Assembly: GCF_017104565.1 (NCBI RefSeq)
Contig: NZ_JAAGPD010000001.1
Coordinates: 496,001 to 560,000 of the forward strand
Length of the DNA: 64,000 nt
Source of the DNA: Paraburkholderia sp. Tr-20389
GTDB taxonomy: Bacteria > Pseudomonadota > Gammaproteobacteria > Burkholderiales > Burkholderiaceae
Direction of reading: 5' to 3'
The notes below the pieces were generated by a model, which searched no databases, was not told the origin of the DNA, and was given only the letters and a program-made list of their open reading frames with translations. The stretch's first letter is position 1. Each line of letters opens with the position of its first letter. Below are positions 43,379-59,748 of the stretch, in pieces. Made by a program: the position numbers and the translations under genes.

Positions 43379-44575
43379 ATGGCACAGCAAGCAACAAAGA
43401 ATCACTACGACGTGGTGATCGTGGGCGGCGCAGTCGTCGGCAGCGCCACCGCTTACTTTCTCGCGAAGAATCCGGATTTCAACGGCTCGGTGCTCGTCGT
43501 CGAGCGGGACTGGACCTATGCGAAATCGGCAACGGCGCTGTCGAGCGCTTCGATCCGGCATCAGTTCTCGAATCCGCTGAACATCAGGATTTCGCAGTTC
43601 GGCACCGAGTTCATCCGCAATTTCCATGAACTTGTCTCTGTCGATGGCGACGCGCCCGAACTCGGCTTCAAGGAAAATGGCTACCTGTATCTCGGCGATG
43701 CGAAAGGCGCGCCGATGTTCGAGCGCAACTCCGCAACGCAACGCGAGAACGGCGCCGATGTCGCGCTGCTGGATCAAACGCAGTTGAAAGACCGCTTTCC
43801 GTGGCTGAATACCGAAGGCCTCGTGAACGGTGTCTACGGACAAAGCGGCGAAGGCTGGTTCGATAGCTATGGCCTGCTTCAGGGCATGCGCAAGAAGGCA
43901 CGTTCGCTCGGCATCGAATACATCGAAAACGAAGTGGTCGGCGTGATTCGCGAAGGCGCGCGCATCACGGGCGTCAAACTCAAGAGCGGCGAGAGCATCA
44001 GCTGCGGGCTCATGGTGAACGCAGCGGGCACGCGCGGGCCGGCGATGGCGCGCCTCGCGGGCCTCGACATTCCCGTGGAGCCGAGAAAGCGCTGCCTGTT
44101 CGTCTTCGACTGCCGCACCCCGCTGCAAGGCACCGTGCCGCTCACGATCGACACGACGGGCATCTTCTTCCGGCCGGAAGGACAGTACTACCTGACAGGG
44201 TGTTATCCGGACCCCGATCCGCTGGCGGACGTCGACGATTTCGACGTGATCCATTCCGAGTTCGAAGACATCATCTGGCCGGCGCTCGCCGAACGCATTC
44301 CCGCATTCGAAGCCATCAAGGTCGTCAACGCGTGGGCAGGCCATTACGACTTCTGCGTGCTGGACCATAACGCGATTGTCGGTCCGCATCCCGAGGTCAC
44401 GAACTTTCTCTTTGCCAACGGATTCAGCGGACATGGTTTGCAGCAGTCACCCGCGATTGGACGGGGCTTGTGCGAATTGATCGTCTATGGCCAATACCGC
44501 TCGCTCGATCTCGCGCCGCTCGGTTACGAGCGCGTGATCGAGAACAAGCCCTTCCTCGAAGAAGGCGTGATCTGA
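43379..44575 (+). CDS. FAD-dependent oxidoreductase, FOXRED1/DAO-like
   Basis: 398 residues. The FAD motif VVIVGGAVVGSATAYFLAK is followed by the conserved SIRHQFSNPLNIRISQFG region typical of FOXRED1 and related sarcosine/dimethylglycine dehydrogenases. The C-terminus has NAWAGHYDFCVLDHNAIVGP and NGFSGHGLQQSPAIGRGLCE. This family usually donates electrons to ETF or the quinone pool; etfBA lies at the other end of the divergent locus, which supports an ETF-linked dehydrogenase of an N-substituted amino acid. Confidence 0.88.
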   Translation: MAQQATKNHYDVVIVGGAVVGSATAYFLAKNPDFNGSVLVVERDWTYAKSATALSSASIRHQFSNPLNIRISQFGTEFIRNFHELVSVDGDAPELGFKENGYLYLGDAKGAPMFERNSATQRENGADVALLDQTQLKDRFPWLNTEGLVNGVYGQSGEGWFDSYGLLQGMRKKARSLGIEYIENEVVGVIREGARITGVKLKSGESISCGLMVNAAGTRGPAMARLAGLDIPVEPRKRCLFVFDCRTPLQGTVPLTIDTTGIFFRPEGQYYLTGCYPDPDPLADVDDFDVIHSEFEDIIWPALAERIPAFEAIKVVNAWAGHYDFCVLDHNAIVGPHPEVTNFLFANGFSGHGLQQSPAIGRGLCELIVYGQYRSLDLAPLGYERVIENKPFLEEGVI

Positions 44576-44607
44576 CTACGTGACTACTCTATGCAGAGGC
44601 TGACAAC

Positions 44608-45348
44608 ATGACTTCTCATTCGTATCGGACCGCGCTGGTCACGGGCGCGTCTAGCGGCATCGGCCGCGCTATCGCGCACCGGTTGGTCAATGACGGGCTG
44701 CAAGTCTATGCGCTAGGCCGCGACGCCAAAGCGCTCGACGCGCTGGCAAGCGAGTGCAACGTCACGCCGATCGTGCTCGATCTGCAGGACACGACGCCTT
44801 TACGCGATCTGTTCGAGCGCGTCGAAATCGACGTCGTCGTGAATAACGCGGGACTGCTGCCCGCCATTGCAAAATTCGCCGAAAGCGATCTGGCCGATCT
44901 CGACCGCATGATCGATATCAATCTGCGCGCGCCGCTGCGTCTCGCGCACCTCGCGCTCGAAGGCATGGTCGCACGCAAGCGCGGTCATCTGTTCTTCGTC
45001 GGTTCAAGTGCCGGGCGCTTCCCGCATCCGAATACGGCCGTCTATGGCGCGACCAAAGCCGCGATCAGCATGTTCTGCGATTCGCTGCGTTGCGATCTGC
45101 TCGGCACGAGAGTCCGCGTCACGGAAATCGCGCCGGGCCGCGTGCAGACGAGCCTCTATCGCACCGCACTCGGTGCCGAAGGCGCGAACGAAAAACTGTA
45201 CGACGCCTATCGCTCGATCCAGCCTGACAACATCGCCGAACTGATCGCGACGGCCATGTCATTGCCGGACGCCGTTGACGTGTCGCGCATGGAAGTCTTT
45301 CCGACCGATCAGGCAGCGGGTGGCTCGCAGATCGTATCCGTCAAGTAA
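44608..45348 (+). CDS. SDR family oxidoreductase
   Basis: 246 residues. TGASSGIG (residues 12-19), NNAG (79-82), a Ser in FVGSSAG and Tyr146/Lys150 in YGATK are all intact. The C-terminal part (ELIATAMSLPDAVDVSRMEV) is typical of the YdfG-like 3-hydroxy acid dehydrogenases. It lies 32 bases after the flavoprotein gene in the rightward operon. Confidence 0.9.
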   Translation: MTSHSYRTALVTGASSGIGRAIAHRLVNDGLQVYALGRDAKALDALASECNVTPIVLDLQDTTPLRDLFERVEIDVVVNNAGLLPAIAKFAESDLADLDRMIDINLRAPLRLAHLALEGMVARKRGHLFFVGSSAGRFPHPNTAVYGATKAAISMFCDSLRCDLLGTRVRVTEIAPGRVQTSLYRTALGAEGANEKLYDAYRSIQPDNIAELIATAMSLPDAVDVSRMEVFPTDQAAGGSQIVSVK

Positions 45349-45381
45349 TTGAAGTACCTTCAAACAGGACATATTCGAATC

Positions 45382-46134
45382 ATGAAGAATCAACGAGTCG
45401 TTATCGTCGGCGGCGCTTCAGGTCTTGGGCTCTCGGTCGCAAAGTTGATGCTGGAAGACGGCGCGGAGAGCATCGCGCTGATCGACAAGAACGGGCCGCT
45501 GCTCGATGAAACGGTCGGCGCGTTGAAGGCGCAAGGCCACGACGTATTCGGCGCAGTGGGCGACATCACGCGCAAGGACTCCGCACAGGCAGTGTTCCGC
45601 AAGGCGCTGGAAGCACTGGGGCGAGTCGATTGCCTGATTAACAGCGCGGCCATCTACCCGCGCCGCCCGATCCTCGAAATCTCCGACGACGAATGGGACC
45701 TCGAAAACGCCGTCAATATCAAGGGCACCTATCACATGATGGTCGCGGCGATCGAACATATGCGCAGCCGTCCGAAGGTCGAGGCGCACGTCGCGGGACG
45801 CATCGTGAACATCACTTCGGTCGATGCATTCAAGGCGCATCCGCAGAACGCGCACTATGCGGCAACGAAGGCAGCCGTCGTGAGTCTGACCAGATCGTTC
45901 GCGCAGGAAGTCGCGAAGGACGGCATCCTCGTCAACTCGGTTGCGCCCGCGGGATTCGCAACCGAGAAGGCGAAGAAGGCCGGCTTCCTCAACGAGCTTG
46001 CCGCAGCCAATCCGCTTGGCCGTGCAGCGGAACCGGAAGAGATCGCACAGTGGGTCGTCATGATGGCAAGCGTCCGCAACACGTATGCAACGGGAGAAAA
46101 CGTCATCGTGAGCGGTGGATACATCTACGCTTGA
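45382..46134 (+). CDS. SDR family oxidoreductase
   Basis: 250 residues with VGGASGLG, then NSAA in place of the usual NNAG, and Tyr159/Lys163 in YAATK. The Asp ending strand 2 (ALIDKNG) suggests NAD. ATG 45382 is preferred, though its Shine-Dalgarno is weak; an in-frame TTG at 45349 directly follows the previous stop and would give 11 more residues. The last structural gene of the rightward group, before the regulator. Confidence 0.88.
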
Positions 46135-46194
46135 GGCACATCAACCGCTCGCCCGCACTGGCGTGGGGCGAGCGGCGACCCGACTGCGGCTGTG

Positions 46195-46217
46195 GTAAAG
46201 TCATAATATGTCATACG
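46195..46217. promoter_or_regulatory. shared operator-like motif, site 2 (FadR-type gene)
   Basis: GTAAAGTCA (46195-46203) and ATATGTCATACG (46206-46217), a variant of the motif at the etf/hyu and LivK promoters. Placed about 90 bases before the regulator gene, fitting autoregulation. Confidence 0.45.
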
Positions 46218-46305
46218 GCGCAAGTCACACAGAACATGCTGCGCCGGCGCGGTATGTCTGCAGCCGTAAATTGCAGAGTTTTTCATCCGGTGTGGAGCAC
46301 ACGGA

Positions 46306-47058
46306 ATGACTCTGGACGCTGAAACTCTTCTGAAAACGGCCGCGAGCTCGGGAAAGCGCCGCAGCCTGACCGAACTCGTCATTCAAGCACTGAGCGACAA
46401 GATCGATCGCGGCGAATACGCGCCGGGTGCCAAGCTGCCTACCGAACCCGAGTTGTGCACCGAATTCGGCGTCAGCCGCACGGTGATCCGCGAAGCCGTT
46501 GCATCGCTCAAACTCGGCCGCCGTCTCATTGCGCGTCACGGCGTAGGTGTGTTCGTCGCCGAGGCCGCTGAGCATTCCGCGGGGGCCGGCTTCATCGATT
46601 CGACCACGCTGAACAGCTCGATGCACGTGCTCGAGTTGCGCATCGGTGTCGAAACCGAATGTGCGGCGTATGCTGCGCAGCGCCGTTCAGACGCGCACCT
46701 GCGAGCACTCAAGGAAGTCTACGCACGCATGGAGATCGTCGCTGTGGATGACGATGCGGAATGCGCACGCGCCGACTTCGAGTTCCATCTCGCCGTCGCC
46801 ACCTGTTCGGAGAATCCGCACTTCGCGTCGATTCTGCGCACGCTGGGGCAAGAGATCATCATCGATCTGCGCCTGAAGCATGCGAAGGCAAACCCCAAGG
46901 AACGCAAGACGTACATACGGCGCATTCAACGCGAACACGGCGACATTCTCGAGGCGATCGAGAAGCAGGACGAAAGCGCCGCGCGCCGAGCAATGCGACG
47001 CCATCTGAACGAAAGCCTCGAACGCTATCACAATCTGTCGAGCACGCGCGCCGAGTAA
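46306..47058 (+). CDS. FadR/GntR-family regulator with FCD domain
   Basis: 250 residues. The N-terminal GntR winged helix is at about 20-90 (GEYAPGAKLPTEPELCTEFG, then VSRTVIREAVASLK). The C-terminal FCD ligand domain has the metal/ligand residues in DFEFHLAVATCSENPHF and the final His in RRAMRRHLNES. FCD proteins respond to small organic acids. The gene closes the rightward catabolic group, and the shared motif at three promoters makes it the best candidate regulator of the whole locus. ATG 46306 has GGAG 9 bases upstream. Confidence 0.9.
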   Translation: MTLDAETLLKTAASSGKRRSLTELVIQALSDKIDRGEYAPGAKLPTEPELCTEFGVSRTVIREAVASLKLGRRLIARHGVGVFVAEAAEHSAGAGFIDSTTLNSSMHVLELRIGVETECAAYAAQRRSDAHLRALKEVYARMEIVAVDDDAECARADFEFHLAVATCSENPHFASILRTLGQEIIIDLRLKHAKANPKERKTYIRRIQREHGDILEAIEKQDESAARRAMRRHLNESLERYHNLSSTRAE

Positions 47059-47120
47059 CGATCACACGGTCTGGCGATCAGGTCCACGCGCTCATCACGA
47101 GGACCTGATCGGCAACCCAG

Positions 47121-48485
47121 TCAGTCGATGCTTCGCTGATCTCCGCGCATCGGCCTGCCCGTACGGTCCACGCAACAAACCAGCGCCAGTATGCCGATCA
47201 CGGCGGCAGCGATCAGGTAGTACGCGGGAATCATGCGGCTGCCCGTTACCTGAATCAGAAACGAATTGATCATCGGCGCGGTGCCCGCGAACAATGCGAC
47301 GGAAACGTTGTAGCTGACTGCCATGCCTGTGAAGCGCACACCCGTTTCGAACAGCGACGGTATCTGCGAATAAATGCACGACAGCAGTGCCGCAAGACAC
47401 AGGTTCAGCATCAGCAACGCGATCAACCGCTGCCCCACGCTTTCGACAGTCAGCAGATGAAAGCACGGCACAGCCAGCACCGCGAGCGCAAGACTGCCCG
47501 CGAGCATCATGGCCTTGCGTCCGATCCGGTCTGCCACGACGGCCAGCAGCGGAATCGTCACGATCAGGCAGGCCTGCGAGACGAGCGCGATCGTGAAACC
47601 CGTCGACGCATCCAGTCGCAAGGTACTCACCAGATAAGTCGGGATATAGGTGACGACGATGAAAAGCGTCACATTGGTCACGATGATGATGCCGCTCGAC
47701 TGCAAAAGCGCACCCTTGTGAGACGCAAACAGTTCGCGAAAGCCACCTGCCCTGTGCGCTGCCTCGAAAGTAGGTGTCTCTTCGAGTCGATAACGGATAT
47801 ACAGTCCGATTGCACCAAGAGGCAGCGCAAGCAGGAACGGAAGACGCCATGCCCACGCATCGATCTGAATCTGGCTAAACGAGTGAGTGAGCCCGGCCGC
47901 CGCCACTGCGCCGAAGCAGAAGCCGCTCATGCAGCCCACTTCGATCCAGCTGGTGACCAGCGTCCGGTTGCGGTCCTTGCAGTACTCTGCGACGAAGATC
48001 GCGGCGCCGCTCGCTTCGCCGCCTGCCGACACGCCCTGCAAGAGTCGAAGCAGCACGAGCAGGACGGGTGACGCGATACCGATTGCGTCGTGATCGGGTA
48101 TCAGGCCAATGCAGAACGTCGCGAGTGCCATCAACACGATGGTCGCGGTCAGCACGTTTTTGCGTCCGTAGCGGTCGCCAATCGGACCGAAAATGAATCC
48201 GCCAAAAGGACGTGCGAAAAACGCAATCGCGAACGCAGCGAGCGATGCAACCAGTTGCGTACCCGGCGCGCTCGCAGGAAAGAACACGCGCCCCATGACG
48301 GCGGCAAGATAGCCATACACCGAAAACTCGAACCATTCGACGAAGCTGCCGACCACCGATGCAAGCACGACCCGGTTCAGTTCGCGTTGCCCGACACGGC
48401 GGCGGCCAGGCCCGCTGTCACGCTGACGTGAAAGATTGCCGCTGTCATTGTCTACCAGGTATTCTGCTTCGCTCTTGACATCCAT
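47121..48485 (-). CDS. MFS permease, metabolite:H+ symporter type
   Basis: 454 residues with twelve membrane segments. The MHS-family opening VVGSFVEWFEFSVYGYLAA is followed by the loop motif GPIGDRYGRKNVL and LQGVSAGGEASGAAIFVAEY. Relatives carry alpha-ketoglutarate, citrate, proline/betaine or shikimate. Likely provides uptake for the catabolic locus. It lies between the regulator (convergent) and the LivK-like gene on the same strand. Start ATG 48485 has only a weak Shine-Dalgarno. Confidence 0.9.
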   Translation of the reverse strand: MDVKSEAEYLVDNDSGNLSRQRDSGPGRRRVGQRELNRVVLASVVGSFVEWFEFSVYGYLAAVMGRVFFPASAPGTQLVASLAAFAIAFFARPFGGFIFGPIGDRYGRKNVLTATIVLMALATFCIGLIPDHDAIGIASPVLLVLLRLLQGVSAGGEASGAAIFVAEYCKDRNRTLVTSWIEVGCMSGFCFGAVAAAGLTHSFSQIQIDAWAWRLPFLLALPLGAIGLYIRYRLEETPTFEAAHRAGGFRELFASHKGALLQSSGIIIVTNVTLFIVVTYIPTYLVSTLRLDASTGFTIALVSQACLIVTIPLLAVVADRIGRKAMMLAGSLALAVLAVPCFHLLTVESVGQRLIALLMLNLCLAALLSCIYSQIPSLFETGVRFTGMAVSYNVSVALFAGTAPMINSFLIQVTGSRMIPAYYLIAAAVIGILALVCCVDRTGRPMRGDQRSID

Positions 48486-48606
48486 ATGAATGATTCCAGT
48501 CGTGACAGAAAGGGAAATGACGTGAAGCAGCGAGGCAGACGGTGGCGATCGCTTCACTCGATGCCGCCGCTGCCTCGCTATGCGAGCCCTGCGCTTGCAA
48601 CCGACT

Positions 48607-49779
48607 TCAGTTCTTGAGCGGTTCGACCTTGTCGCCAACCGCAACGGCCTGCGGCACCCACTTGCCGCCGACAACCTTGTAGAAAGTGGCCGTCGGGTCT
48701 TTCATGTCGCCATTCGGCATGAACGCGATATTTCCGGAGATACCTTCGAAGGCAACCGATTTCACGAACGATCCATACACTTTCGGATCGGTGGAATTGG
48801 CCTTTTGCATGGCGTTGATCAACACCCAGGTCGCGTCATACGCGGAAGGTGCGTACGCGACCACGCCCTCCTTGTACTTGGCTTTCATCTTTTCGTCGAA
48901 CTCACGCCCCGTCTTCATCTTCGACAACGGAATGCCGTAGTCCCACGACATCGCGCCCTCCGCGCTCTCGCCGGCAACCTTGAGGAAGGTATCGTTCTCG
49001 AAGCTTCCACCGCCCAGCATCGCGGCCTTGATGCCGAGCTGCCGCATCTGCTTCATCACCAGACCGGCCTGCTGATCGAGGCCGCCCCAGAACACGACGT
49101 CCGGATTGAACGACTTGATGCGCGTGAGTTGGGACTTGAAGTCGACGGCCTTGTCGGATGTGAATTCACGATCGACGATCTTGCCTCCCGCCGCCTCGAC
49201 GCCCTTGACGAATTCGTCCGCCATCCCCTGCCCGAACGAGGTCCGGTCATCGATCACCGCAATGCTTTTGCCCTTGAGCGCGTTGACGGCCGAATGGCCC
49301 GCAAGCTGTCCCATCTGCGCGTCCGAATTGACCACGCGGAACACATTCCCGAAGCCTTGCGACGTCAGCGTCGGGTTCGTGGCCGTCGGCGAGACCATCG
49401 GTATCCCGGCCGTGTTGTAGATGCGGGAAGCAGGAATGCTCGTGCCGGAATTGAAGTGCCCGACGATACCCGCAACCTTCGAATCGACCATCTTCTGCGC
49501 AACCTGCGAGCCCATGCGCGGATCGCCCTGATCGTCCTCCGCATCGAGGACGAAATGCACGGGCTGGCCCGCAATGACGAGCTTCTTCGCGTTGGCATCG
49601 TCGAGCGCGAGTTCGACCCCGCGCTTCAGATCGACGCCGTAGTGCGCCGATCCGCCCGTCAACGGCGCCGCAAAGCCGATAGTTACGTCGCCCGCAAAAG
49701 CGGCAGGACTGGATATGAGCGCGCCGGCAGCCACTGACATGGCCAACGCGAAGCGTGTGAGCGAAAGCGGGGTTTTCAT
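48607..49779 (-). CDS. branched-chain amino-acid type ABC binding protein (LivK-like)
   Basis: 390 residues with a signal peptide ending ISSPAAFAGD. Features of family 6 periplasmic proteins: TIGFAAPLTGGSAHYGVDLK and GVELALDDANAKK, and GIPMVSPTATNPTLTSQGF in the hinge region. No LivHMGF permease or ATPase genes are adjacent. It has a good promoter (TTGACA-17-TACTTT) covered by the shared operator-like motif, so it joins the putative regulon. It could bind an amino acid or related compound. Confidence 0.88.
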   Translation of the reverse strand: MKTPLSLTRFALAMSVAAGALISSPAAFAGDVTIGFAAPLTGGSAHYGVDLKRGVELALDDANAKKLVIAGQPVHFVLDAEDDQGDPRMGSQVAQKMVDSKVAGIVGHFNSGTSIPASRIYNTAGIPMVSPTATNPTLTSQGFGNVFRVVNSDAQMGQLAGHSAVNALKGKSIAVIDDRTSFGQGMADEFVKGVEAAGGKIVDREFTSDKAVDFKSQLTRIKSFNPDVVFWGGLDQQAGLVMKQMRQLGIKAAMLGGGSFENDTFLKVAGESAEGAMSWDYGIPLSKMKTGREFDEKMKAKYKEGVVAYAPSAYDATWVLINAMQKANSTDPKVYGSFVKSVAFEGISGNIAFMPNGDMKDPTATFYKVVGGKWVPQAVAVGDKVEPLKN

Positions 49780-49872
49780 CGAATACCTCAGCGGATTGCG
49801 AATGGATGGTCGGCGGTGGCCCGGTGCGTCGACTCGAGCGACGGACAGGATTTTCTGCCCTCACCTGCTATC

Positions 49873-49901
49873 AAAGTATTAGGTAAGACGTCATATGTCA
49901 A
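49873..49901 (-). promoter_or_regulatory. promoter of the LivK-like gene (TTGACA-17-TACTTT)
   Basis: -35 TTGACA at 49896-49901 and -10 TACTTT at 49873-49878, spacing exactly 17. About 95 bases before the start codon. The shared motif overlaps the -35 box and spacer. Confidence 0.6.
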
Positions 49902-49903
49902 CG
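49883..49903. promoter_or_regulatory. shared operator-like motif, site 3 (LivK-like gene)
   Basis: GTAAGACGTCA (49883-49893) overlaps ATATGTCAACG (49893-49903). The two halves are identical to those in the etf/hyu region but 7 bases closer. Overlap with the promoter suits repression. Confidence 0.5.
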
Positions 49904-50311
49904 GGTCAAAAAAGGCGCCGTATCCAGGGTTTTCGAGGGTGTGGGAGAGGTAACGCGCAGCGGGATTCACGGTTTCCGGCGAATTGAGCGCGTGGGATGC
50001 CGTCATCGGCGCGACGCCCGCTGCACGAGCGACATCGTCCAGCGTCACGCGACCGCTGCCTCTGCGCACGCGGCGTTTGTCTGCCATAGAAGGGTTGTCC
50101 ACTGGCAAAACTTGTGTCCTCGAACAGATGCGGAATCGGGCTGCGCTCGATAGCTGCGATCGAACGCGTATCAAGTTCGAGAGTAAGCACCAAGTGGAAT
50201 GGACAGCGGAGGTTTGGAGCGCGTCGTCAGATTGCGAATGGTTTCCGAAAAATTAGAATCTCCAATTCAATCCGCGATTCCAATAGAGAAAAATAGTGGC
50301 CCGATGTGTAA

Positions 50312-50334
50312 ATTCAAACGCCGCGAGTTTGAAT
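50312..50334. promoter_or_regulatory. inverted repeat before the beta-CASP gene
   Basis: ATTCAAAC and GTTTGAAT with a 7-base spacer, perfect arms, 53 bases before the start codon. The surrounding DNA (50230-50390) is AT-rich. Candidate operator of the two-gene module; the binding protein is unknown. Confidence 0.45.
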
Positions 50335-50386
50335 CTATAAGCACGAAAAGTTTGAGCGTATAGTCCACAAAAAAATCGGATACGAC

Positions 50387-51634
50387 ATGCGAGCGTGCAT
50401 ACATCGGGGAAGCAAACAGATTGGCGGAAGTTGTGTTGAACTCGAGACCGGCGGCAAGCGACTTGTGCTTGATCTCGGTTTGCCGCTGGACGCGGCGAAT
50501 AACGATGCGGTGTTATTGCCGGGCATCCGGGGCATCGACGGCAACGACCCATCGCTATGCGGGATCCTGATTTCCCATCCGCACCTCGATCACTATGGTC
50601 TGCTCGCTCATGTTTCGCGGCGCGTCCCAATTGGACTCGGGCGTTCGGCCCGGCGAATCCTGCAAGCGGCATCCAGCTTCGTACCAGGCGACTGGCCGGT
50701 GCCCGCATCGGGCTGGGACTACGAATCGGAAACCACGTTCAACGTCGGCCCGTTCCAGATCACCCCTTATCTGGTCGATCACTCTGCCTACGACGCTTAC
50801 TCGCTGCTGATCGAAGCAGACGGCAAGCGGATCTTTTACAGCGGAGATTTCCGCGCGCATGGCCGTAAATCGCGGCTCTTCGACGCAATCGTCAAGCGCC
50901 CTCCCACGCGTATCGATGCGTTGCTGGTCGAAGGCTCGTCGCTGAGCAGGTTGAGCGCGGATGCGACGTTCCCGAATGAAAGCGACATCGAAGCGAAACT
51001 GGTCGATACGTTCCGCGAAACTGCGGGGTTGGCGCTGGTTCACGCATCCGTGCAGAACATCGACAGACTGGTCTCGATCTTTCGCGCAGCGAAAAAGTCG
51101 GGGCGTACGCTGGTTATCGATCTCTACGCGGCGGCCCTGCTGGAAGCAACCGGAAATGCCAGCCTGCCTCAATCGGATTGGGACAATATCGCGCTGTTCG
51201 TTCCGCACGCGCAGCGGCTGCACATCAAGAAAAATTCACTATTCGAACTTCTCTCACGGCATTCCGCTAAACGGATCTATCAAACCGATCTCGCCCGAGC
51301 GCCGCACAGGTTCACGCTGCTGTTCAGGCCGTTGCATTGTTCCGACCTCGATCAAGCGAAGTGCCTCACGGGCGCTTCTTACGTGTATTCGCAGTGGGAA
51401 GGCTACTGGAATCACGGGACCTACGACAAACTAAAGGCATGGATCGATCGGCAAGGGATCGTTCCGACGATGCTGCACACCTCCGGCCATGCTTCGCCAC
51501 GCGATCTGAAGACATTCGTCAAAGCGCTCGATGCCAGAAAGGTCGTGCCGATTCACAGCTTCAGACCGGATCTCTACGCGGAGCGGTTCGACAACGTGGA
51601 ACCACACGCCGACGGAGAATGGTGGGATCTCTGA
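50387..51634 (+). CDS. beta-CASP metallo-beta-lactamase-fold hydrolase (RNase J-like)
   Basis: 415 residues. The metal motif HPHLDH (with flanking GILIS and YGLLAH) is at about residues 64-69; DHSAYDAYSLLI and FYSGDFRAHG supply the next ligands. The C-terminal HTSGHAS is the beta-CASP motif found in RNase J and related nucleases. Nucleic acid hydrolysis is therefore likely. It lacks the long C-terminal domain of RNase J and is shorter than the usual 550 residues. ATG 50387 has only a weak Shine-Dalgarno. It lies 44 bases before a gene with a PD-(D/E)XK-like motif and probably forms an operon with it. Codon use is less biased than in the flanking catabolic genes, suggesting acquisition. Confidence 0.82.
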   Translation: MRACIHRGSKQIGGSCVELETGGKRLVLDLGLPLDAANNDAVLLPGIRGIDGNDPSLCGILISHPHLDHYGLLAHVSRRVPIGLGRSARRILQAASSFVPGDWPVPASGWDYESETTFNVGPFQITPYLVDHSAYDAYSLLIEADGKRIFYSGDFRAHGRKSRLFDAIVKRPPTRIDALLVEGSSLSRLSADATFPNESDIEAKLVDTFRETAGLALVHASVQNIDRLVSIFRAAKKSGRTLVIDLYAAALLEATGNASLPQSDWDNIALFVPHAQRLHIKKNSLFELLSRHSAKRIYQTDLARAPHRFTLLFRPLHCSDLDQAKCLTGASYVYSQWEGYWNHGTYDKLKAWIDRQGIVPTMLHTSGHASPRDLKTFVKALDARKVVPIHSFRPDLYAERFDNVEPHADGEWWDL

Positions 51635-51678
51635 TTCCGCGATCCCATCGACGATTTCGACTTACCTTTAGAAGCGAC

Positions 51679-52437
51679 ATGATGACCATCGAAGACAATA
51701 CGTGGAAGGTGCATCTCGAGAAGATGACGGGGTTTGCCCAGCTCAGGCGTCAACGGCACGACGAACTGCGCGAACTGGCAAAAGATGATGTCTATATCCG
51801 CGTGGGCGGCAACGGATTTCGGCCTGTTTCTCTGCACGGCGACAACCCCTGTGGGAGCCTGTATATCGACTGCAAAGCGGTCGGCACAACGGCTAATCTC
51901 GATCGAGCGTTGCAAAGAGCCAGGTCAGCGGGGCATGGTAAAGGCAAAGCCGGAAACGGCAAGCCGGAACATCGCGTGCAGGCCGGTCTGATTCGCGAGG
52001 CGCTGATGGCTCCCGCAAGTCTTCCCAAGATGCTGGACTGTGAGGCATTGCTTGACCAGTTGATCTTCGTATCGGACGAATTTCGTCTGGACGATATCCG
52101 GGCTGACGTGATTGCACTGGGCCGTAAAGGCGACGACTACTTTCCGGTCCTCATCGAACTCAAGGCGGTGCGCTCGCTGACGCGCGTGTTGGAACAACTC
52201 GAAAGAATCACGGACCGGCTGAATCAGGCACCTGAAGCGACCGTGGCCTTCTTTTCGGCTGCATCCGGGGTGGATGCCAGCCGCATCGGGACGTCCGCGC
52301 TTCGTATGCTTATCTGGCCCGCAAGCAAGAGCGGCAAAGAGAGTCACGCCGTGTCGATTGCGCGCGACAGAGGATTTGTCACGATCGCCTTTCCCATTGA
52401 AAACGATGGTCGATTGAAGTTTCAGCGGGAAGTCTGA
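51679..52437 (+). CDS. unrecognised protein with PD-(D/E)XK-like nuclease motif
   Basis: 252 residues (ATG 51679; a second ATG at 51682). The C-terminal half has DDIRADVIALGRKGDDYFPV followed by LIELKA: an Asp and an E-x-K in the right order and spacing for a PD-(D/E)XK nuclease core, similar to NucS/DUF91-like domains. A helix with RVLEQLERITDRLNQ follows. The N-terminal half matches no family I know. It is encoded next to a beta-CASP nuclease, with a perfect hairpin after its stop. The catalytic assignment is an inference from three residues. Confidence 0.7.
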   Translation: MMTIEDNTWKVHLEKMTGFAQLRRQRHDELRELAKDDVYIRVGGNGFRPVSLHGDNPCGSLYIDCKAVGTTANLDRALQRARSAGHGKGKAGNGKPEHRVQAGLIREALMAPASLPKMLDCEALLDQLIFVSDEFRLDDIRADVIALGRKGDDYFPVLIELKAVRSLTRVLEQLERITDRLNQAPEATVAFFSAASGVDASRIGTSALRMLIWPASKSGKESHAVSIARDRGFVTIAFPIENDGRLKFQREV

Positions 52438-52460
52438 GTTCGCATACCGCAACGCCATGA

Positions 52461-52487
52461 ACGCGTGCAGTACGAGACTGCACGCGT
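52461..52487 (+). terminator. hairpin terminating the two-gene nuclease module
   Basis: Perfect 11-base stem ACGCGTGCAGT / ACTGCACGCGT with a 5-base loop, 23 bases after the stop codon, followed by a short T-containing stretch. Confidence 0.6.
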
Positions 52488-52667
52488 CATCTTTGAAAGC
52501 CGGCGGAATGCGCGGCACGATGATTGCTGACTAGCTTGATTTCCGGCCATATCCGCGACGGGACGGGTCGACGGCGCGCCCCATCGTTGAGCAAAAGTGT
52601 CCCGCCAGTTCATACTATTTCGTCTAACGATGACCAACCGATCGCCGTGTCAACTTTCACTTCCACG

Positions 52668-53840
52668 ATGCGCCCAGCCGGCGCGATGCTGTTCCTCATC
52701 GGTACGCTGCTGACGGGCGCGGGATACGGCGCCACCTTTCTCCTTTCGATGCGCTTCCGGTCCATCGGCGGAAACGAGTTCGACACGGGTATCGCGCTGG
52801 CGGGCGGCGTGCTCGGAACTTTCGTGGGCGTGACAATGGTCCGTTCGCTCGCGCCGCGTATCGGAACGGCGCGCATGGCTGCGCTATCCGCACTCTGCGT
52901 CGGTATCGGCCTTATGGGCTTTTCGGCAACGATACGCGACAGCTCGCTGGAAGTGATGGCCGGATTTCTTATTGGTCTCGGCTGGGGCGCGTTCTATGTT
53001 GCCGCACCGTTGGCATTATCTGAGCGCACGCACGCAACCGATCGCGGCATCTGGTTTCTGCGCTTCGGTACATTCCAGATGGCGGGAATCGGCGGTAGCC
53101 CGGCACTCGCCGCGTATGCGATTCACTTTCTGCACTGGTCCGTCAATAGCGCGCTTGGCGTCATAGCGGTCCTATGTGCAATCGCGTCCGTCCTGCTGGA
53201 GGTATTCGGACGGCTCTTGCCGCATTCGTCCGGCGCAATGAAGAATGAGCGATGGGTGGGCGTTCTGGGCGCAATCGTCCGGACGCGCGCCGTCTATCCG
53301 ATTCTGATGATCGCGCTTGGCGCCTGCGTCTTCTCCGGCATCATGACGTTCCAGATGTCTCTCGTTCAGGGCACGCATGCACAGGCGAGCACCTTCTTCA
53401 GCCTCTACACGTTGACCGTGGTTTCGATGCGATGGCTGCTTTCCCGGCTCGTCGCCAACATCTCCACTGAAACCGCGACCAAGGTGCTGCTTGTCGTGAT
53501 GGTGCTCGGCATTGCTTCGATGTTCGCCGTGCCCTTGCACGTGTTCTTTCAGTTGTCTGCGGCGGTGCTGTTCGGAACGGGGTATGGGCTCGTCTATCCC
53601 GTCATGCAGACGCAGCTCGTCAACGATTCGGACGTAACGCATCACAATGCCGTTCTGACGTGGTTCGTGACCGCGTACTTCATCGGCGCATTTGGTTTTC
53701 CGACGGTCGGAGGCTGGCTGCTGGTTCACAGCGGCAAAGGCGCGCTGTTGACTGTCATTGCGGCGTGCGCGTTGGCGGCGTTGCTGCTCGCGTTTCTGCG
53801 AGACAAGCGCCGCATGCCGGCGCTGACGATCAAGGCGTAA
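52668..53840 (+). CDS. MFS permease
   Basis: 390 residues with about twelve hydrophobic segments (MLFLIGTLLTGAGYGATFLL at the start, GGWLLVHSGKGALLTVIAAC near the end). A MFS of the general 12-helix drug or small-molecule type; no family-specific motif was recognised, so the substrate is unknown. ATG 52668 is used; a GTG at 52647 is in frame and would add seven residues. No Shine-Dalgarno is clear at either. Confidence 0.8.
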   Translation: MRPAGAMLFLIGTLLTGAGYGATFLLSMRFRSIGGNEFDTGIALAGGVLGTFVGVTMVRSLAPRIGTARMAALSALCVGIGLMGFSATIRDSSLEVMAGFLIGLGWGAFYVAAPLALSERTHATDRGIWFLRFGTFQMAGIGGSPALAAYAIHFLHWSVNSALGVIAVLCAIASVLLEVFGRLLPHSSGAMKNERWVGVLGAIVRTRAVYPILMIALGACVFSGIMTFQMSLVQGTHAQASTFFSLYTLTVVSMRWLLSRLVANISTETATKVLLVVMVLGIASMFAVPLHVFFQLSAAVLFGTGYGLVYPVMQTQLVNDSDVTHHNAVLTWFVTAYFIGAFGFPTVGGWLLVHSGKGALLTVIAACALAALLLAFLRDKRRMPALTIKA

Positions 53841-53884
53841 TCCGACGATGGCGGGATGCGCCGCAATGAGAAGGGAGCACGACA

Positions 53885-54466
53885 ATGAAGATCCGCTACA
53901 TGCTTGCAGCAGCCGTCGTCGCGACGACGACGGGTCCGGCCCTTGCCCAGACGCAGCCATCCGTGGAGATCCAGAGAGGAAACGACACGACCACGGTGAC
54001 GGGGACGAACACGGTCATTGCCACGGTAATCGCCATTGATCCCACCACGCGGACTGTCACGTTGAAGAACAGGAATGGCAAGACGGAGGAACTCAAGGCG
54101 GGCGAGCAGGTGCGCAACTTCGATCAGCTCAAGATCGGCGATGTCGTCACTACTGAGTATCGCGAAGCGAGGTCGCTGAGCCTCAGGAAAACGAGCGGGC
54201 CGCGGTCTTCGAGTGAGCGGCAGATCTTGCTGCCGGCTGCTTCAGGCGCCAAGCCGGGCGGCACGATCCGGCGTGAAGTGACGATTGTGGGCGATGTCGT
54301 CGCTATCGATGCGAATGGGAAACACATTACGATCAGGGGACCGCAAGGCAGGGAGAATGTGCTCGTAGATCCCGAGCAGTTGCGGGATATACATGTTGGC
54401 GATCAGGTTGAGATTGTGCGTAGCGAGGCTGTAGCTATATCCGTTACGCCAGGGGTGGCGAATTAG
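53885..54466 (+). CDS. secreted protein with two repeated OB-like beta domains
   Basis: 193 residues with a signal peptide (MKIRYMLAAAVVATTTGPAL, cut after AQ). The mature part has an internal duplication: VIAIDPTTRTVTLKNRNGKT with LKIGDVVTTEYREA, and again VVAIDANGKHITIRGPQGRE with IHVGDQVEIVRSEA. This resembles DUF5666-like small beta-barrels. GGGAG lies 8 bases before the ATG. It follows the MFS gene by 44 bases and may be cotranscribed. Function unknown; periplasmic. Confidence 0.78.
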   Translation: MKIRYMLAAAVVATTTGPALAQTQPSVEIQRGNDTTTVTGTNTVIATVIAIDPTTRTVTLKNRNGKTEELKAGEQVRNFDQLKIGDVVTTEYREARSLSLRKTSGPRSSSERQILLPAASGAKPGGTIRREVTIVGDVVAIDANGKHITIRGPQGRENVLVDPEQLRDIHVGDQVEIVRSEAVAISVTPGVAN

Positions 54467-54478
54467 GGTTTTGCTCGC

Positions 54479-54690
54479 TGGCATCCGCGTTATGGCTTTG
54501 GTTTATTGGCGTTGCCCCTTGGATTTTTTGCTGGCGTCGCCCTTCCTGGTTCGGGTTTTTGCGTTGGCATCCGCGCTATGTCTTTGGTTTGCTGGCGTTG
54601 CCCCTTGGATTTTTTGCCGGCGTCGCCCTTCCTGGTTCGGGTTTTTGCGTTGGCATCCGCGCTATGTCTTTGGTTTGCTGGCGTTGCCCC
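54479..54690. repeat. 86-base tandem repeat, two and a half copies
   Basis: Units begin with TGGCATCCGCG at 54479, 54565 and 54651, an exact 86-base period; copies 1 and 2 differ by few bases. Each unit holds the outer tip of the palindrome described next plus a 44-base filler. The third copy is the true left arm tip. Confidence 0.8.
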
Positions 54691-55299
54691 TGTGCGGGGC
54701 GGCACTTACTTTCTTTGCCGCCGCAAAGAAAGTAAGCAAAGAAAGCGGGCTCACACCGCCAGCCCGTGTTTTTGCCTGCGGGCCCCCAACGGGTCCCGCA
54801 CTCCAAACGGCAACACATTGTTTTGCGCCCGTTGCCAGCGCCTTGAACAGGCGCATCACCCACTCCAATCACCCGCAGACAGCCAGCGGCAGCGAACCGT
54901 CCGCGCCGCCCAGGTGGCAAACGGTGTGTAGGTTGTCGCACCATGCGCGTTGCCGATCCTACGACACCGATCCCGCTTTTCAGTCCGGAGTGGAGCACTT
55001 CCATCGCGACGGCCTACACATAGTTTGCCACCTGGGCGGCGGTGGACTTCCTGGTAAGGCAGTTAGTGACGCAGGAGTATGAGGTGGGTGAGGCGAATCC
55101 AGGAACGCGGGCAACGGGCATGGATTAGCACGATGCCGCGCGCAGGACGGGGACGTTGAGAGCCCCTGGGCGAACGTCAAGTGCTGGCGGTGTTAGCGGC
55201 TTTCTTTTGCCTACTTTTCTTTGCCGCTGCAAAGAAAAGTAGGTGCCGCCCCGCACAGGGGCAACGCTAGCGAACCAGAGACATCACGCGGACGCCAAC
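54649..55299. repeat. 651-base concentric inverted-repeat element (MITE-like)
   Basis: Left arm 54649-54768 is the reverse complement, with modest changes, of right arm about 55178-55299; both contain TGCGGGGCGGCAC and a TTTCTTTGC-type stretch. A second pair, 54904-54932 and 55013-55041, differs at 2 of 29 bases and has the same centre (about 54973). No gene is inside. Intergenic DNA of this kind, with the same arm sequence, is familiar from Burkholderia-group genomes; whether it is mobile is not known. Confidence 0.75.
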
Positions 55300-55322
55300 A
55301 ACAACAACAACAACAACAACAA
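55296..55322. repeat. (CAA)9 microsatellite
   Basis: Nine uninterrupted CAA units beginning where the right palindrome arm ends and finishing about 18 bases after the stop codon of the small gene on the minus strand. Length change by slippage is possible but no coding effect is expected. Confidence 0.9.
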
Positions 55323-55340
55323 AACCGCAAACACCGTGAA

Positions 55341-55736
55341 TCATTTCACGCCAACATCTACGATGAGAACCGACTTCACCGCCCGAATCCTCCGATCGAC
55401 AAAATACCCACCCCCTTCCGTATAACGCAAATACAGACGCCCGCACTGCGAGCACTCCCAAACCCCACAGCGGTTATAAGGAAAGTACTGCGGCGCGATA
55501 GGCGCATCCGCCGACCAATACTGCACGTTATCCGGCCGATACTCCTCAAACGTAGGCTCAGCATGAGCCTCATGCATCAGCGTCGCGATCTCGACGAGTT
55601 GCGTCTCATCGAGGGAAAGCGGCTGCGATTGCCAGCCGTCGAGCGGCGTCTTCGTGCAAGAGCACGGCGCAGCGGTGCGTTCTTCGGCGCGTTTTGCAAG
55701 CGCGACGAGTGCCGCTGCGTCCACGTAGGGTGTCAT
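55341..55736 (-). CDS. small Cys-rich hypothetical protein
   Basis: 131 residues. Contains CSC near residue 26 and CGVWECSQCGRLYLRYTEGG near the C-terminus, where the second half forms a C-x-x-C knuckle; a zinc site is likely. The rest is acidic (LSLDETQLVEIATLMHEAHA). Not recognised beyond a resemblance to conserved small proteins of the Burkholderia group. ATG 55736; no good Shine-Dalgarno. It faces the palindromic element. Confidence 0.65.
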   Translation of the reverse strand: MTPYVDAAALVALAKRAEERTAAPCSCTKTPLDGWQSQPLSLDETQLVEIATLMHEAHAEPTFEEYRPDNVQYWSADAPIAPQYFPYNRCGVWECSQCGRLYLRYTEGGGYFVDRRIRAVKSVLIVDVGVK

Positions 55737-55833
55737 GATGTGCTGTCTGCTTCAGGTAGATTCGGGCGAATGTCACTTATACCGCAACTGCCGTCACGAT
55801 GCCGCGCCGCGCAGAAAACCCGGCTTCGACGCC

Positions 55834-56838
55834 TCACGTCGACTGCCGCCTCACCAGCCGCGGTAACGGCGCAATCACAGCAGGCGGCGGGCCTTCGCCA
55901 TGCGGCTCGTGAATCAGCCGTATCAGCAATTCGATCGACGCCTGCGCAATCGCCTCCGTATTGATCGCCACTGTGGTCAGCGAAGGCCGCACCTGGTGCG
56001 CAAGCTGAATGTCCGTGATGCCGATCACGGACACATCGTCGGGCACTTTACGGCCCAGCGTCGCCAGCGCCTGCAATGCGCCAATGCCAAGCAGGTCGTT
56101 GGTGGCGAACAGCGCGCTAAGATGCGGCTCGCGTTCCATCAACTCCATACATGCAGCAAAGCCCGCGTCGATCGTATCCGGAATCTCCAGCACGGCGGCA
56201 TCGTCCGGTTCGAGCCCCGCTTCGCGCATCACCTCGCGAAAGCCCGTCGCGCGCGCATCCTGCAAACCGCCACAACCATCGCCCACCAGCATGCCGATAT
56301 CGCGATGCCCCAGTTCGAGCAGATGCCGCGCTGCAAGCTCGCCCGCATGCGCAAAGTCGACGGCCACGCAAGGCAACGCCGGCAGACGCTCGGGATGCTC
56401 CCACAGGCTCAGCACGATCGGCGCGCCCACCGCCGCGGATGCGCACAGTTCGTTGATCGCGATATCCGTGTTGAGCACCAGCACACCTTCCGCCAGCGTG
56501 CCCGCAATCTGCGTCAGATACGCCCGGCCGATCTCCGCGTCGTCGTCCGTGTTGCACACCATCAGGAAGTAGCCGGCGCGCCGCGCCGCGCGTTCAGCCG
56601 CTAACACGAACTCAGGATAGAACGGATTCGCGATGCTCGACAGCATCAGCGCAAGCGTCGGCGAGCGCCCCTCCGCCAACGCGCGCGCATTCAGATTCGG
56701 GCGGTAGCCGAGTTCGCGGATCGCGCGCATCACGCGCTCGGCCGTCTCCGGGCGCACCTTGTCCGGGTTGCGCAAGACGTTCGACACGGTGGCCGCCGTG
56801 ACCTGCGCGCGTCGCGCAACGTCGCTTAATGTCGCCAT
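55834..56838 (-). CDS. LacI-family regulator of the galactoside operon
   Basis: 334 residues. The helix-turn-helix is at the start (MATLSDVARRAQVTAATVSN, then VLRNPDKVRPETAERVM), followed by the hinge helix (NARALAEG) and the periplasmic-binding-like sugar domain. It is divergent from the ABC importer operon, and two identical palindromes of the LacI type lie between them. Probably represses the operon until a galactoside or derived sugar binds. Confidence 0.92.
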   Translation of the reverse strand: MATLSDVARRAQVTAATVSNVLRNPDKVRPETAERVMRAIRELGYRPNLNARALAEGRSPTLALMLSSIANPFYPEFVLAAERAARRAGYFLMVCNTDDDAEIGRAYLTQIAGTLAEGVLVLNTDIAINELCASAAVGAPIVLSLWEHPERLPALPCVAVDFAHAGELAARHLLELGHRDIGMLVGDGCGGLQDARATGFREVMREAGLEPDDAAVLEIPDTIDAGFAACMELMEREPHLSALFATNDLLGIGALQALATLGRKVPDDVSVIGITDIQLAHQVRPSLTTVAINTEAIAQASIELLIRLIHEPHGEGPPPAVIAPLPRLVRRQST

Positions 56839-56899
56839 GCCTGTTGCAGTGTCCGAAAGAAAATGAAAGATCCCACATTGAGAGACTGCGAATCAGATG

Positions 56900-56928
56900 T
56901 TGCACACCTCACGCAGGCTTTGATAACT
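56900..56928 (+). promoter_or_regulatory. possible promoter of the galactoside operon
   Basis: TTGCAC at 56900-56905 and ATAACT at 56923-56928, spacing 17. Both operators lie downstream of it, suggesting a roadblock or looping mode. The -10 box is a weak match. Confidence 0.3.
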
Positions 56929-56981
56929 TTGTCCGAAAGCACATTGGAGACGAACATGATCGAGCTTTCGAGCACACCCGA

Positions 56982-56997
56982 ATTTAAACGCTTAAAT
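56982..56997. promoter_or_regulatory. LacI-type operator O1
   Basis: ATTTAAACGCTTAAAT, an imperfect palindrome around a central CG, the layout typical of LacI-family sites. Its exact reverse complement occurs 56 bases on. Confidence 0.75.
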
Positions 56998-57037
56998 CCC
57001 CGGCGCGCAAGCCTCTGCGCGATTTTTTTCAACGCGA

Positions 57038-57053
57038 ATTTAAGCGTTTAAAT
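57038..57053. promoter_or_regulatory. LacI-type operator O2
   Basis: ATTTAAGCGTTTAAAT, the reverse complement of O1, ending 14 bases before the ATPase start codon, so it overlaps the leader of the mRNA. Centre-to-centre spacing to O1 is 56 bases. Confidence 0.75.
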
Positions 57054-57067
57054 CCAGGGAAAACACC

Positions 57068-58219
57068 ATGTCTGCGATCTCCCTGAGAAACATCCAGAAG
57101 ACGTTCGGCGCGAATGCGCCTGTCATCAAGAACCTCAACCTCGAAATCGGCGCGCACGAGTTCTGCGTGTTCCTTGGTCCGTCCGGTTGCGGCAAGTCCA
57201 CGTTGCTGCGCATCGTCGCGGGACTCGAAGATGAGACCGATGGCGACGTGACCATAGGCGGCCAGTCAATGAACGGAGTCCCCGCTGCAGAGCGCGGCGT
57301 CGCGATGGTGTTCCAGAGCTATGCACTCTTCCCGCACATGTCCGTGTACGAAAACATGGCGTTCGGCCTGAAGCTCGCGAAGACACCGAAGTCCGAGATC
57401 GACCGCAAGGTGCGCGAAGCAGCGCGCGTGCTGCAACTCGATGCGCTGCTCGAACGCAAGCCGCGCGAGCTGTCGGGCGGTCAGCGACAGCGCGTTGCGA
57501 TCGGCCGTGCGATCGTGCGCGAGCCTGGCGTGTTTCTGTTCGACGAGCCGCTGTCGAATCTCGATGCCGCGCTGCGTGGCCAGACGCGCATCGAGATCGC
57601 GCGGCTGCATCAGCGCTTCGCCAACGCGAGCGTCGTCTACGTGACGCACGATCAGATCGAAGCGATGACGCTCGCCGACAAGATCGTGCTGCTGCATGCG
57701 GGCACGGATACGCAGCGCTTCGGCAGCATCGCGCAGATCGGTGCGCCGCTCGAGCTTTATCATCGGCCGCGTTCGAGGTTCGTGGCAGGCTTCATCGGCT
57801 CGCCGCGCATGAATTTCATCGACGGCGAAGTCGATGCCGTTGCACACGACAGCGTGCACGTCAGACTCAAGAAGAGTGGCTCGACGTTGCGCGCGCAGGT
57901 CGACGGCACGCGTCTGAAACGCGGGCAGCCCATCACACTCGGCATTCGTCCCGAACACATGCGCCTCGACGGCGACGCGCAAACGCTCGCGGTCAAATCG
58001 CTGCTTACCGAACAACTCGGCGAACACAGCTATGTGCACGTCGAATGCGCGGACGGCACGCTGATCGCGAAGGCGCCCGGCGATGTTGCGATCCGCAACG
58101 GCGAGTCGCTTGCGTTGCGTCTGCCCGCCGACGCCTGCCATCTGTTCGATGAAGAAGGCATCGCACTGGAGCGCTCGGTCGCAATCGACACGCAACCGCT
58201 CGCGCTGCAAACCGCCTAG
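57068..58219 (+). CDS. sugar ABC transporter ATP-binding protein (MalK/UgpC-like)
   Basis: 383 residues. Walker A GPSGCGKST at residues 37-45, signature LSGGQRQRVAIGRA, Walker B VFLFDEPLSNLD and the H-loop YVTHDQ are all present, followed by the MalK-type C-terminal domain (PRSRFVAGFIGSPRMNFIDG). It powers uptake through the two permeases of the same operon. Usually one such ATPase serves several sugar systems. Start ATG 57068 follows an AGGGA 8-12 bases upstream. Confidence 0.93.
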   Translation: MSAISLRNIQKTFGANAPVIKNLNLEIGAHEFCVFLGPSGCGKSTLLRIVAGLEDETDGDVTIGGQSMNGVPAAERGVAMVFQSYALFPHMSVYENMAFGLKLAKTPKSEIDRKVREAARVLQLDALLERKPRELSGGQRQRVAIGRAIVREPGVFLFDEPLSNLDAALRGQTRIEIARLHQRFANASVVYVTHDQIEAMTLADKIVLLHAGTDTQRFGSIAQIGAPLELYHRPRSRFVAGFIGSPRMNFIDGEVDAVAHDSVHVRLKKSGSTLRAQVDGTRLKRGQPITLGIRPEHMRLDGDAQTLAVKSLLTEQLGEHSYVHVECADGTLIAKAPGDVAIRNGESLALRLPADACHLFDEEGIALERSVAIDTQPLALQTA

Positions 58220-58348
58220 CACCGACGCGAACCGCGCCCGCCGGGTTCGCCACTGTCAGCAGCCGGCCACAGAGCCGGCGCAGTGGGCACGAAGACCGCC
58301 GTCCGCATCGAGCGGGCGGCCAACAACGCAGTTCAAGGAGACACCACG

Positions 58349-59632
58349 ATGATCAACAAGCACCTGAGCCGCATCGCCGGGCTCGCCTCTTTCAACACGC
58401 GCTCCGTGACGGCTGCCGTCGCGATGTCGGCGGCGTTGCTGTCGGGCCTCGTCACGAATGCCGACGCCGGTCAGCTGAACGTGAACGTGTCGGCGCGCGG
58501 CAATCAGCGCTCGACGTGGCAGGACGCGTTCGACAAGTTCAAGAAAGCCAATCCCGATGTCGATCTGAAGATCACCTACATCACCGAGGAAGCGTACAAG
58601 GTGCAGATGGGCGGCTGGCTCGCCACCGATCCGCCCGATGTCGTGTCGTGGCACGACGGCGAGCGCATGGCGTACTACGCGAAGCGCGGGCTGCTCGAAG
58701 ACCTCTCCGGCGACTGGGCCAAGAACGGCTGGAGCCAGCAGTATGCATCGGTGAAAGAAGCCTCGACCTATAACGGCAAGCAGTACGCGGCGCCCCTCGG
58801 CTACGACGCGTACGGCTTCTTCTATCGCAAGGATCTGTTCGAAAAGGCGGGCATCAAGAGCGAACCGAAGACGTGGGAAGAATTCCTCGATGCCTGCAAG
58901 AAGCTGAAAGCAAGCGGCGTAGCGCCCATCGCCGTCGCTGCACGCGACAGCTGGACGCTCGCGGCATGGTTCGATTATCTCGACCTGCGCATCAACGGCA
59001 ACGCGTTTCATCAGAAGCTGATGGCAGGCGAAATACCGTACACGGATCCGCGCGTGAAGAAGGTCTACACGACGTGGAAGACGTTGATGGACGACCATTA
59101 CTACATCGACAACGCGCTCTCCTACGACCTCGACTCCATCGGCCCGTTCCTCGCCAACGGCAAGGCCGCGATGATGCTGATGGGCACGTTCTTCTCGGCG
59201 GGCATTCCGGCGAGCGTAAAAGACCAGATCGGCTTCATGCGCTTCCCGGTGATCGACCCGAAGGTGCCGATGGCGGAAGACGGTCCCGTCAACGTGCTGC
59301 TGGTTCCTGCGAAGGCGAAGAACAAGACCGACGCGCGCCGTCTGCTCGCCTTCATGGAAACGCCTGAAATCAACGCGGACCTTGCACGCGGCTGGGGTCA
59401 ACTGCCGTCGAACAGCAAGGCGACCGAGCCTGAAGACCCGATCTCGAAGGTCGGCTTCCAGACGCTCGCCAGCACGACGGGCGGCATCGCGCAGTTCTAC
59501 GATCGCGACATGACGAAGGAAATGGCCGACGAAGGCATGAAGGCAATGCAGCAGTTCTATAACGATCCGTCGCAGATCGATTCGCTGCTCGCCCGTCTCG
59601 AAGCGACCCGCAAGCGCATCTATCACAAGTGA
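58349..59632 (+). CDS. sugar ABC transporter substrate-binding protein (family 1)
   Basis: 427 residues, signal peptide ending GLVTNADAG. A family 1 MalE-type binding protein: DAFDKFKKANPDVDLKITYI, APLGYDAYGFFYRKDLFEKA, and the tail NDPSQIDSLLARLEATRKR. ATG 58349 follows AAGGAG by about 9 bases. It delivers oligosaccharides or galactosides to the two permeases. It is separated from the first permease gene by two stable hairpins, which likely raise its expression relative to the permeases. Confidence 0.93.
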   Translation: MINKHLSRIAGLASFNTRSVTAAVAMSAALLSGLVTNADAGQLNVNVSARGNQRSTWQDAFDKFKKANPDVDLKITYITEEAYKVQMGGWLATDPPDVVSWHDGERMAYYAKRGLLEDLSGDWAKNGWSQQYASVKEASTYNGKQYAAPLGYDAYGFFYRKDLFEKAGIKSEPKTWEEFLDACKKLKASGVAPIAVAARDSWTLAAWFDYLDLRINGNAFHQKLMAGEIPYTDPRVKKVYTTWKTLMDDHYYIDNALSYDLDSIGPFLANGKAAMMLMGTFFSAGIPASVKDQIGFMRFPVIDPKVPMAEDGPVNVLLVPAKAKNKTDARRLLAFMETPEINADLARGWGQLPSNSKATEPEDPISKVGFQTLASTTGGIAQFYDRDMTKEMADEGMKAMQQFYNDPSQIDSLLARLEATRKRIYHK

Positions 59633-59640
59633 TGTCCTGA

Positions 59641-59692
59641 AGCGGCCGTGCTGCACGCGGCCGCTGCCGGGCGCATCGCATGCGCTGCGCCC
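59641..59692 (+). other. two hairpins between binding-protein and permease genes
   Basis: Hairpin 1 (59641-59665): AGCGGCCG paired with CGGCCGCT around a short loop. Hairpin 2 (59669-59692): GGGCGCA paired with TGCGCCC around a 10-base interior. Comparable to the REP elements after malE that protect upstream mRNA. Confidence 0.55.
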
Positions 59693-59748
59693 GCGAATCA
59701 CCCGCCGCTCCCCGCATCACGCGGGCGGCATCGAACGAGGTCTTCGTC

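Follow-up and report, generated by a model that had tools for sequence, protein, structure and literature searches.

A beta-CASP hydrolase gene and a predicted PD-(D/E)XK-like gene form a candidate mobile nuclease module in Paraburkholderia sp. Tr-20389

The initial annotation of a stretch of DNA from Paraburkholderia sp. Tr-20389 (64,000 nucleotides, hereafter the window) had described a two-gene nuclease-like module. We confirmed both open reading frames where it had placed them, 44 bases apart, and found every motif claimed for their products, namely HPHLDH, SGDFRAHG and HTSGHAS in P0001 and RADVIALG and LIELKA in P0002 (Table 1). The AT-rich leader carries a perfect inverted repeat, as described, and the hairpin after the pair is indeed perfect; it has no T-run, and a terminator scan, which found no terminators in 49700-52700, did not call it. 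Perfect hairpins with arms of at least 10 and loops of 3-12 have 12 start points in the 64-kb window. The pair is less GC-rich than its flanks, by a small margin (leader 0.53-0.55, genes about 0.56-0.60, flanks mostly 0.58-0.63). The adjoining decayed regulator gene was recognised by eye in an ORF at 49788-50174 on the minus strand, which resembles the start of a LacI-type regulator until the similarity ends at the boundary of the strain-specific segment. The 9.0-Mb source genome holds a single match to the MBL gene encoding P0001. Elsewhere in the window, the stretches 54681-54748 and 55195-55267 match each other's neighbourhood in relatives, in opposite senses; they contain perfect hairpins of 14-15 bp (54705-54736 and 55210-55243), were also found in L130 and L131 next to the same gene, and look like an extragenic palindromic element.

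Table 1. Features of the locus in window coordinates, with a small protein of related loci in locus coordinates
Feature	Position	Strand	Basis or remark
Strain-specific segment with the module	49945..52505	.	blastn of window 44000-60000 against relatives' stretches L129-L136
Perfect 8-bp inverted repeat, possible operator, in AT-rich leader	50312-50319/50327-50334	+	GC 0.53-0.55
Gene 1, P0001: single-module beta-CASP metallo-hydrolase (predicted), 415 aa	50387-51634	+	Pfam and active-site residues
Gene 2, P0002: divergent PD-(D/E)XK nuclease-like protein (predicted), 252 aa	51679-52437	+	structure model, profiles, alignment A6
Perfect 11-bp hairpin 3' of gene 2, possible transcript end	52461-52471/52477-52487	+	without T-run
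GIFW...PRGR-type protein	L031:5516-5992, L032:5558-5953, L033:5555-5998, L034:7247-7621

P0001 scored above the Pfam cut-offs for Lactamase_B_2, Lactamase_B and RMMBL. We took the motif scheme from PMC3095777 and PMC7458816, the placement on P0001 being our own, and located metallo-beta-lactamase core motifs 1-4 together with motifs A, B and C of the beta-CASP group. The active-site positions are D29, H64, H66, D68, H69, H132, D154, E182, H364, H368 and H390; in an alignment of P0001 with 79 relatives, ten catalytic positions were invariant across all 80 rows, and H390, which is the histidine of motif C, was the same in 79. Judged by these residues, P0001 is predicted to be a beta-CASP hydrolase that depends on metal; its active site is complete and its motif C is of the histidine type. 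PMC3095777 cites this histidine as a mark of RNA-processing beta-CASP enzymes; according to PMC7458816, SNM1A given the histidine kept its selectivity unchanged, so that the residue is a weak predictor of substrate and no strict rule.

The module idea had been made to depend on a PD-(D/E)XK fold in P0002, and structure prediction returned this fold at modest confidence. In comparisons with the PDB, the C-terminal half of the P0002 model was predicted to have the PD-(D/E)XK core (a helix, three strands, a helix and further strands), and the D...ExK active site was present. The best fold match was the endonuclease EndoMS, and a well-modelled relative from the partner family described below agreed, its leading PDB matches being the same. 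The model has a pLDDT of 65, with residues 17-71 below 50; its alignment included remote partner sequences, and Foldseek with this model gave no match at E<=0.001. Alignment A6 showed that E97, R141, D143, E160 and K162 are common to P0002 and its two close homologues. We regard P0002, with modest confidence, as a predicted and divergent PD-(D/E)XK nuclease-like protein. Searches of P0002 against Pfam, NCBIfam, PADLOC and PHROGs gave nothing convincing (best Pfam E 0.32, NCBIfam 0.12), the PDB sequences gave no match, and no relatives were found among plasmids, phages and viral contigs. Genes like that of P0002 are very rare: in sets of 399 and 369 genomes they occurred only in the own genome.

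We then asked how relatives of the MBL gene are accompanied. A tblastn search of P0001 against 72,556 plasmid records gave 25 matching records (best 46% identity); at six of the 8 places examined (H1, H3-H9), an adjoining or near ORF carried D-[hydrophobic]...WEAK, the exceptions being L033 and L038. A scan of 84,980 species-level genomes with the MBL alignment A1 yielded at least 531 relatives at tblastn E<=1e-3, those listed ranging from Pseudomonadota to Bathyarchaeota records, and the best 80 of them (45-66% identity) were examined for pairing; ten viral contigs also carried an MBL relative. By profile count, a partner-family ORF lay within 1 kb of the MBL gene, or was fused to it, at 52 of 98 loci, a figure that includes a 63-residue fragment at L084 and a 207-residue piece at L113 and excludes L057 and L066, where the distance exceeds 1 kb. 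It replaced a first count of 46/98, in which single-linkage clustering had drawn in a small unrelated protein. The 54 partner-family matches among 8124 ORFs were all within about 1.6 kb of an MBL gene and on the same strand.

At the 44 loci without the partner family, D...ExK occurred in 18 of 49 adjoining ORFs, compared with 36 of 573 distant ORFs at all 98 loci. The neighbour at L038, one of the 18 loci with such an ORF, is a metallophosphoesterase, so the count becomes 17. Neither a partner-family ORF nor an adjoining motif ORF was found at 26 of the 98 loci, several of which end at contig edges and others of which are intact; L106, L108 and L118, among these 26, encode MBLs with an additional fused domain. 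Fused genes were found at L056, L106 and L108, that of L056 being a natural single-chain fusion from Marinospirillum minutulum.

Other genes also adjoin MBL relatives. On alphaproteobacterial plasmids a small GIFW...PRGR-type protein, a possible third component, is encoded beside the MBL gene, and none was found beside the window's pair. A PcfJ-like gene stands directly 3' of the MBL gene at L058 (9267-9746; Pfam PcfJ 3.7e-9, for L058 only), and several of L040, L060, L061, L079, L083 and L094 have clustered +1 genes of this group; the start of the gene overlaps the MBL end in several loci, and it is perhaps an alternative partner. Metallophosphoesterase-like genes lie directly 3' of the MBL gene at L036:7209-7853, L038:7443-8012 and L057:9307-10455, the first two going by their annotation and the last identified by eye.

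P0002 itself is unlike the common partner. Alignment A6 matched the partner-family alignment A2 with an hhalign probability of 68.6 (E 4.6e-5); P0002 alone scored 31.0, compared with at most 23.6 in 120 control ORFs, with a probability of only 27%. In a partner profile built without P0002, it ranked 55 of 11,673 sequences, and in the iterated profile 56, with one antisense ORF of L052 above it. A proposed match of D120 and E122 to invariant partner residues in alignment A3 was dropped because the close homologues of P0002 have neither residue. Column matching was not relied on alone either, because 3 of 150 control ORFs equalled P0002, at 9 of 15 near-invariant columns, when the test was loosened. 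By profile comparison, P0002 is a putative remote relative of the MBL-linked partner family, the similarity being confined to the active-site region. As for its own homologues, the expectation that they adjoin an MBL gene was borne out in part: both are near one, yet on the opposite strand and 1.0 and 2.8 kb away. That two unrelated genes came to stand together by chance would suit the rarity of P0002-like genes and the unlikeness of P0002 to the common partner; its remote match to the partner family and the MBL genes near both homologues already disfavour this explanation, which we hold to be highly improbable.

Since the 98 loci had been picked by their MBL, a separate two-way search was made in 146 genomes from the genus to which G460 belongs (locus L107, Bradyrhizobium), in which A2 and A1 were searched separately (MBL E<=1e-30, partner E<=1e-10). 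The results showed the MBL in 13 genomes, the partner in 14 and both in 13, and in all 13 shared genomes the two overlap or are at most about 260 bases apart. The Fisher p of about 1e-17 ignores kinship and overstates independence, because the genomes are related, G460 and G462 at least were known before the search, and A2 includes members of the genus. The 14th genome, G1003, has the remnant of a partner in a frame of 210 codons and no MBL within 9 kb. On contig C4 of G460 the MBL search matched at four places; a partner match adjoins two of them and is missing at the other two, of which one is short and contains a stop. G944 has a second partner fragment of 65 residues about 90 kb off. The neighbourhood of the homologues in other genomes, on which the module idea had likewise been staked, was thus found in all 13 MBL genomes of the 146, at 52 of the 98 loci and in the fused genes, and with the fold prediction the idea outlived both tests.

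At E<=1e-30, P0001 was found in one of 145 same-genus genomes, its own. Matches at E<=0.001 in 82 of 300 genomes of the order were discounted as relatives, since the best outside the own genome reached 32 bits over part of P0001. A tree was built from P0001 and 79 genome loci, leaving out L041 (split frame), 8 plasmid loci and 10 viral loci. P0001 fell in the starred clade, with 26 rows, eleven named groups and mixed phyla, a phylum count that MAG contamination may inflate; the closer relatives listed that are recorded as isolates or strains include members of Thiohalocapsa, Marinospirillum, Desulfobulbus, Stenotrophomonas and Azohydromonas. Blastn placed the end of upstream synteny at 49938-49949 in four relatives (G310, G376, G333 and G346) and its restart downstream at 52506-52512 in three (G368, G310 and G376). 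The upstream and downstream blocks lie at separate places in G310, G376 and G346 and on different contigs in draft G333; L132 of G408 matches the window only in the transporter gene. The module thus occupies a 2.5-kb segment that was not found in these relatives and lies at a synteny break. Checked as the initial annotation had advised, the position of the pair is variable, in a strain-specific segment beside the LacI-like remnant.

This distribution bears on two other explanations. The pair might be an RNA-processing or nucleic-acid repair cassette with no tie to invaders, in which a helper nuclease assists an accessory equivalent of RNase J or SNM1; the matches of P0001 to RNase J chains, its RNA-type motif C and the EndoMS fold match of P0002 would allow it. 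We consider this unlikely, given the mixed phyla of the MBL tree and the many genomes in which the MBL was not found (at E<=1e-30, 144 of the 145 from the same genus and 133 of the 146 from the genus having the pair), a distribution which argues that the pair is not housekeeping. A toxin-antitoxin or addiction module, in which one protein is a nuclease toxin, the other restrains it and the two stabilise plasmids or islands, would agree with genes that often overlap or abut, with pairs on some plasmids and with the patchy distribution. This, too, is improbable to the same degree: catalytic residues are kept across relatives in both proteins, and one would not expect a toxin to be fused in a single chain with its own inhibitor.

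The surroundings of the MBL genes were also compared with defence genes. At the 8 plasmid places the neighbours include restriction-modification genes, UvrD with PD-(D/E)XK proteins, DUF262 with WYL, and transposases, two places having no annotation; a neighbour cluster of 13 loci includes the annotated WYL protein of L038. With PADLOC at E<=1e-8, 110 of the 186 flank proteins of 120-650 aa at 20 MBL loci, taken without the MBL and the family partners, gave matches to 84 families, compared with 11 for 110 of the 237 proteins in 20 control stretches of the same contigs; as these counts are of families and not of proteins, and 25 of the 84 flank families are listed by name, the contrast is supportive rather than decisive, and the control stretches also matched Cas6e, a dGTPase model and others. 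Two plasmids have Tn3, Mu-like, TniB/TniQ, IS21 and recombinase genes beside the MBL gene. These genes and the MBL relatives on the 10 viral contigs would suit a passenger that serves a mobile element, by excluding rival plasmids or transposons or by processing DNA in transfer. We think this quite unlikely, since a recombinase-like neighbour cluster (named by eye) occurs at only 3 of 98 loci and no mobile-element gene is a constant MBL neighbour among the clusters listed for them.

The initial annotation could not match the pair to a named system, and neither could we: P0001 and P0002 had no match among the named defence systems of PADLOC-DB 2.0.0 up to E 1. Ten partner-type relatives gave at best PDC-S11 (L106, 1.1e-6) and PDC-S02 (L083, 2.1e-4), and one A6 member matched at E 0.048. 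No description of the pair was found in a search of an open-access library of papers. In those plasmid records that are annotated, gene 1 is entered as 'MBL fold metallo-hydrolase' and the partner as 'hypothetical protein' or not at all, so a recurrent two-nuclease pair is easily overlooked.

Taken together, the two genes are a conserved, co-inherited and sometimes fused pair encoding nuclease-like proteins with intact active-site residues in distant hosts. Because the genes overlap, are fused and are inherited together, the proteins may act jointly, and we infer that they share a substrate or a complex. Patchy, transferred, island-linked nuclease modules are usually defensive, which makes defence our best guess, and a defence role fits the distribution and surroundings of the pair. 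We therefore favour, as probable, a mobile two-component nuclease module that would protect against phages or other mobile DNA. For its putative substrate, order of action and defence role we propose the following. The beta-CASP enzyme would be the constant part and the PD-(D/E)XK-like protein the variable one; that one type of MBL is found with PD-(D/E)XK partners of diverse kinds suggests an executioner that stays the same while the subunit for recognition or cutting changes. The partner would recognise invading nucleic acid and cut or nick it, and the conserved executioner would degrade it from the new ends, or, alternatively, once activated, degrade the RNA of the infected cell. The wider proposal, that bacteria and archaea widely share an unnamed immune system whose interchangeable PD-(D/E)XK partners would provide recognition and the first cut and whose constant beta-CASP enzyme would carry out degradation, is plausible though somewhat short of probable. 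If the pair is defensive, stand-alone immune systems gain an RNase J-type enzyme among their effectors, and the question arises whether a PD-(D/E)XK protein directs or unleashes a beta-CASP nuclease; the Marinospirillum minutulum fusion (L056) is suited to structural and biochemical work.

Among known systems, RNase J (TIGR00649; PDB 7pcr and 5a0t) resembles P0001 in its metallo-beta-lactamase core, beta-CASP motifs and RMMBL region. P0001 differs in having 415 aa, an accessory status and a nuclease-like partner gene, and falls far below the TIGR00649 cut-off (50.7 versus 400 bits). The nearest solved sequence is EF2904 of Enterococcus faecalis (PDB 2az4, 429 aa, E 2.8e-15), which its entry calls hypothetical. 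Cas14 of CRISPR type VII is likewise a beta-CASP enzyme serving immunity, although P0001 reached only 20.3 bits with its model NF045584 (cut-off 800). The PD-(D/E)XK defence nucleases Shedu SduA and Hachiman HamA are not known to have a beta-CASP partner, and neither P0001 nor P0002 matched a model in PADLOC. The nearest concept is that of the MBL pro-nucleases paired with proteases in Hachiman, AVAST, Lamassu and Canu, as presented in PMC12799240. In those systems a trypsin-like or caspase protease accompanies an MBL described as similar to the nucleases of DNA uptake, whereas P0001 is of the beta-CASP type and the predicted fold of its partner is PD-(D/E)XK-like instead of that of the proteases of Hachiman, AVAST and Canu; in both cases an MBL-fold enzyme is joined by a partner gene among defence loci.
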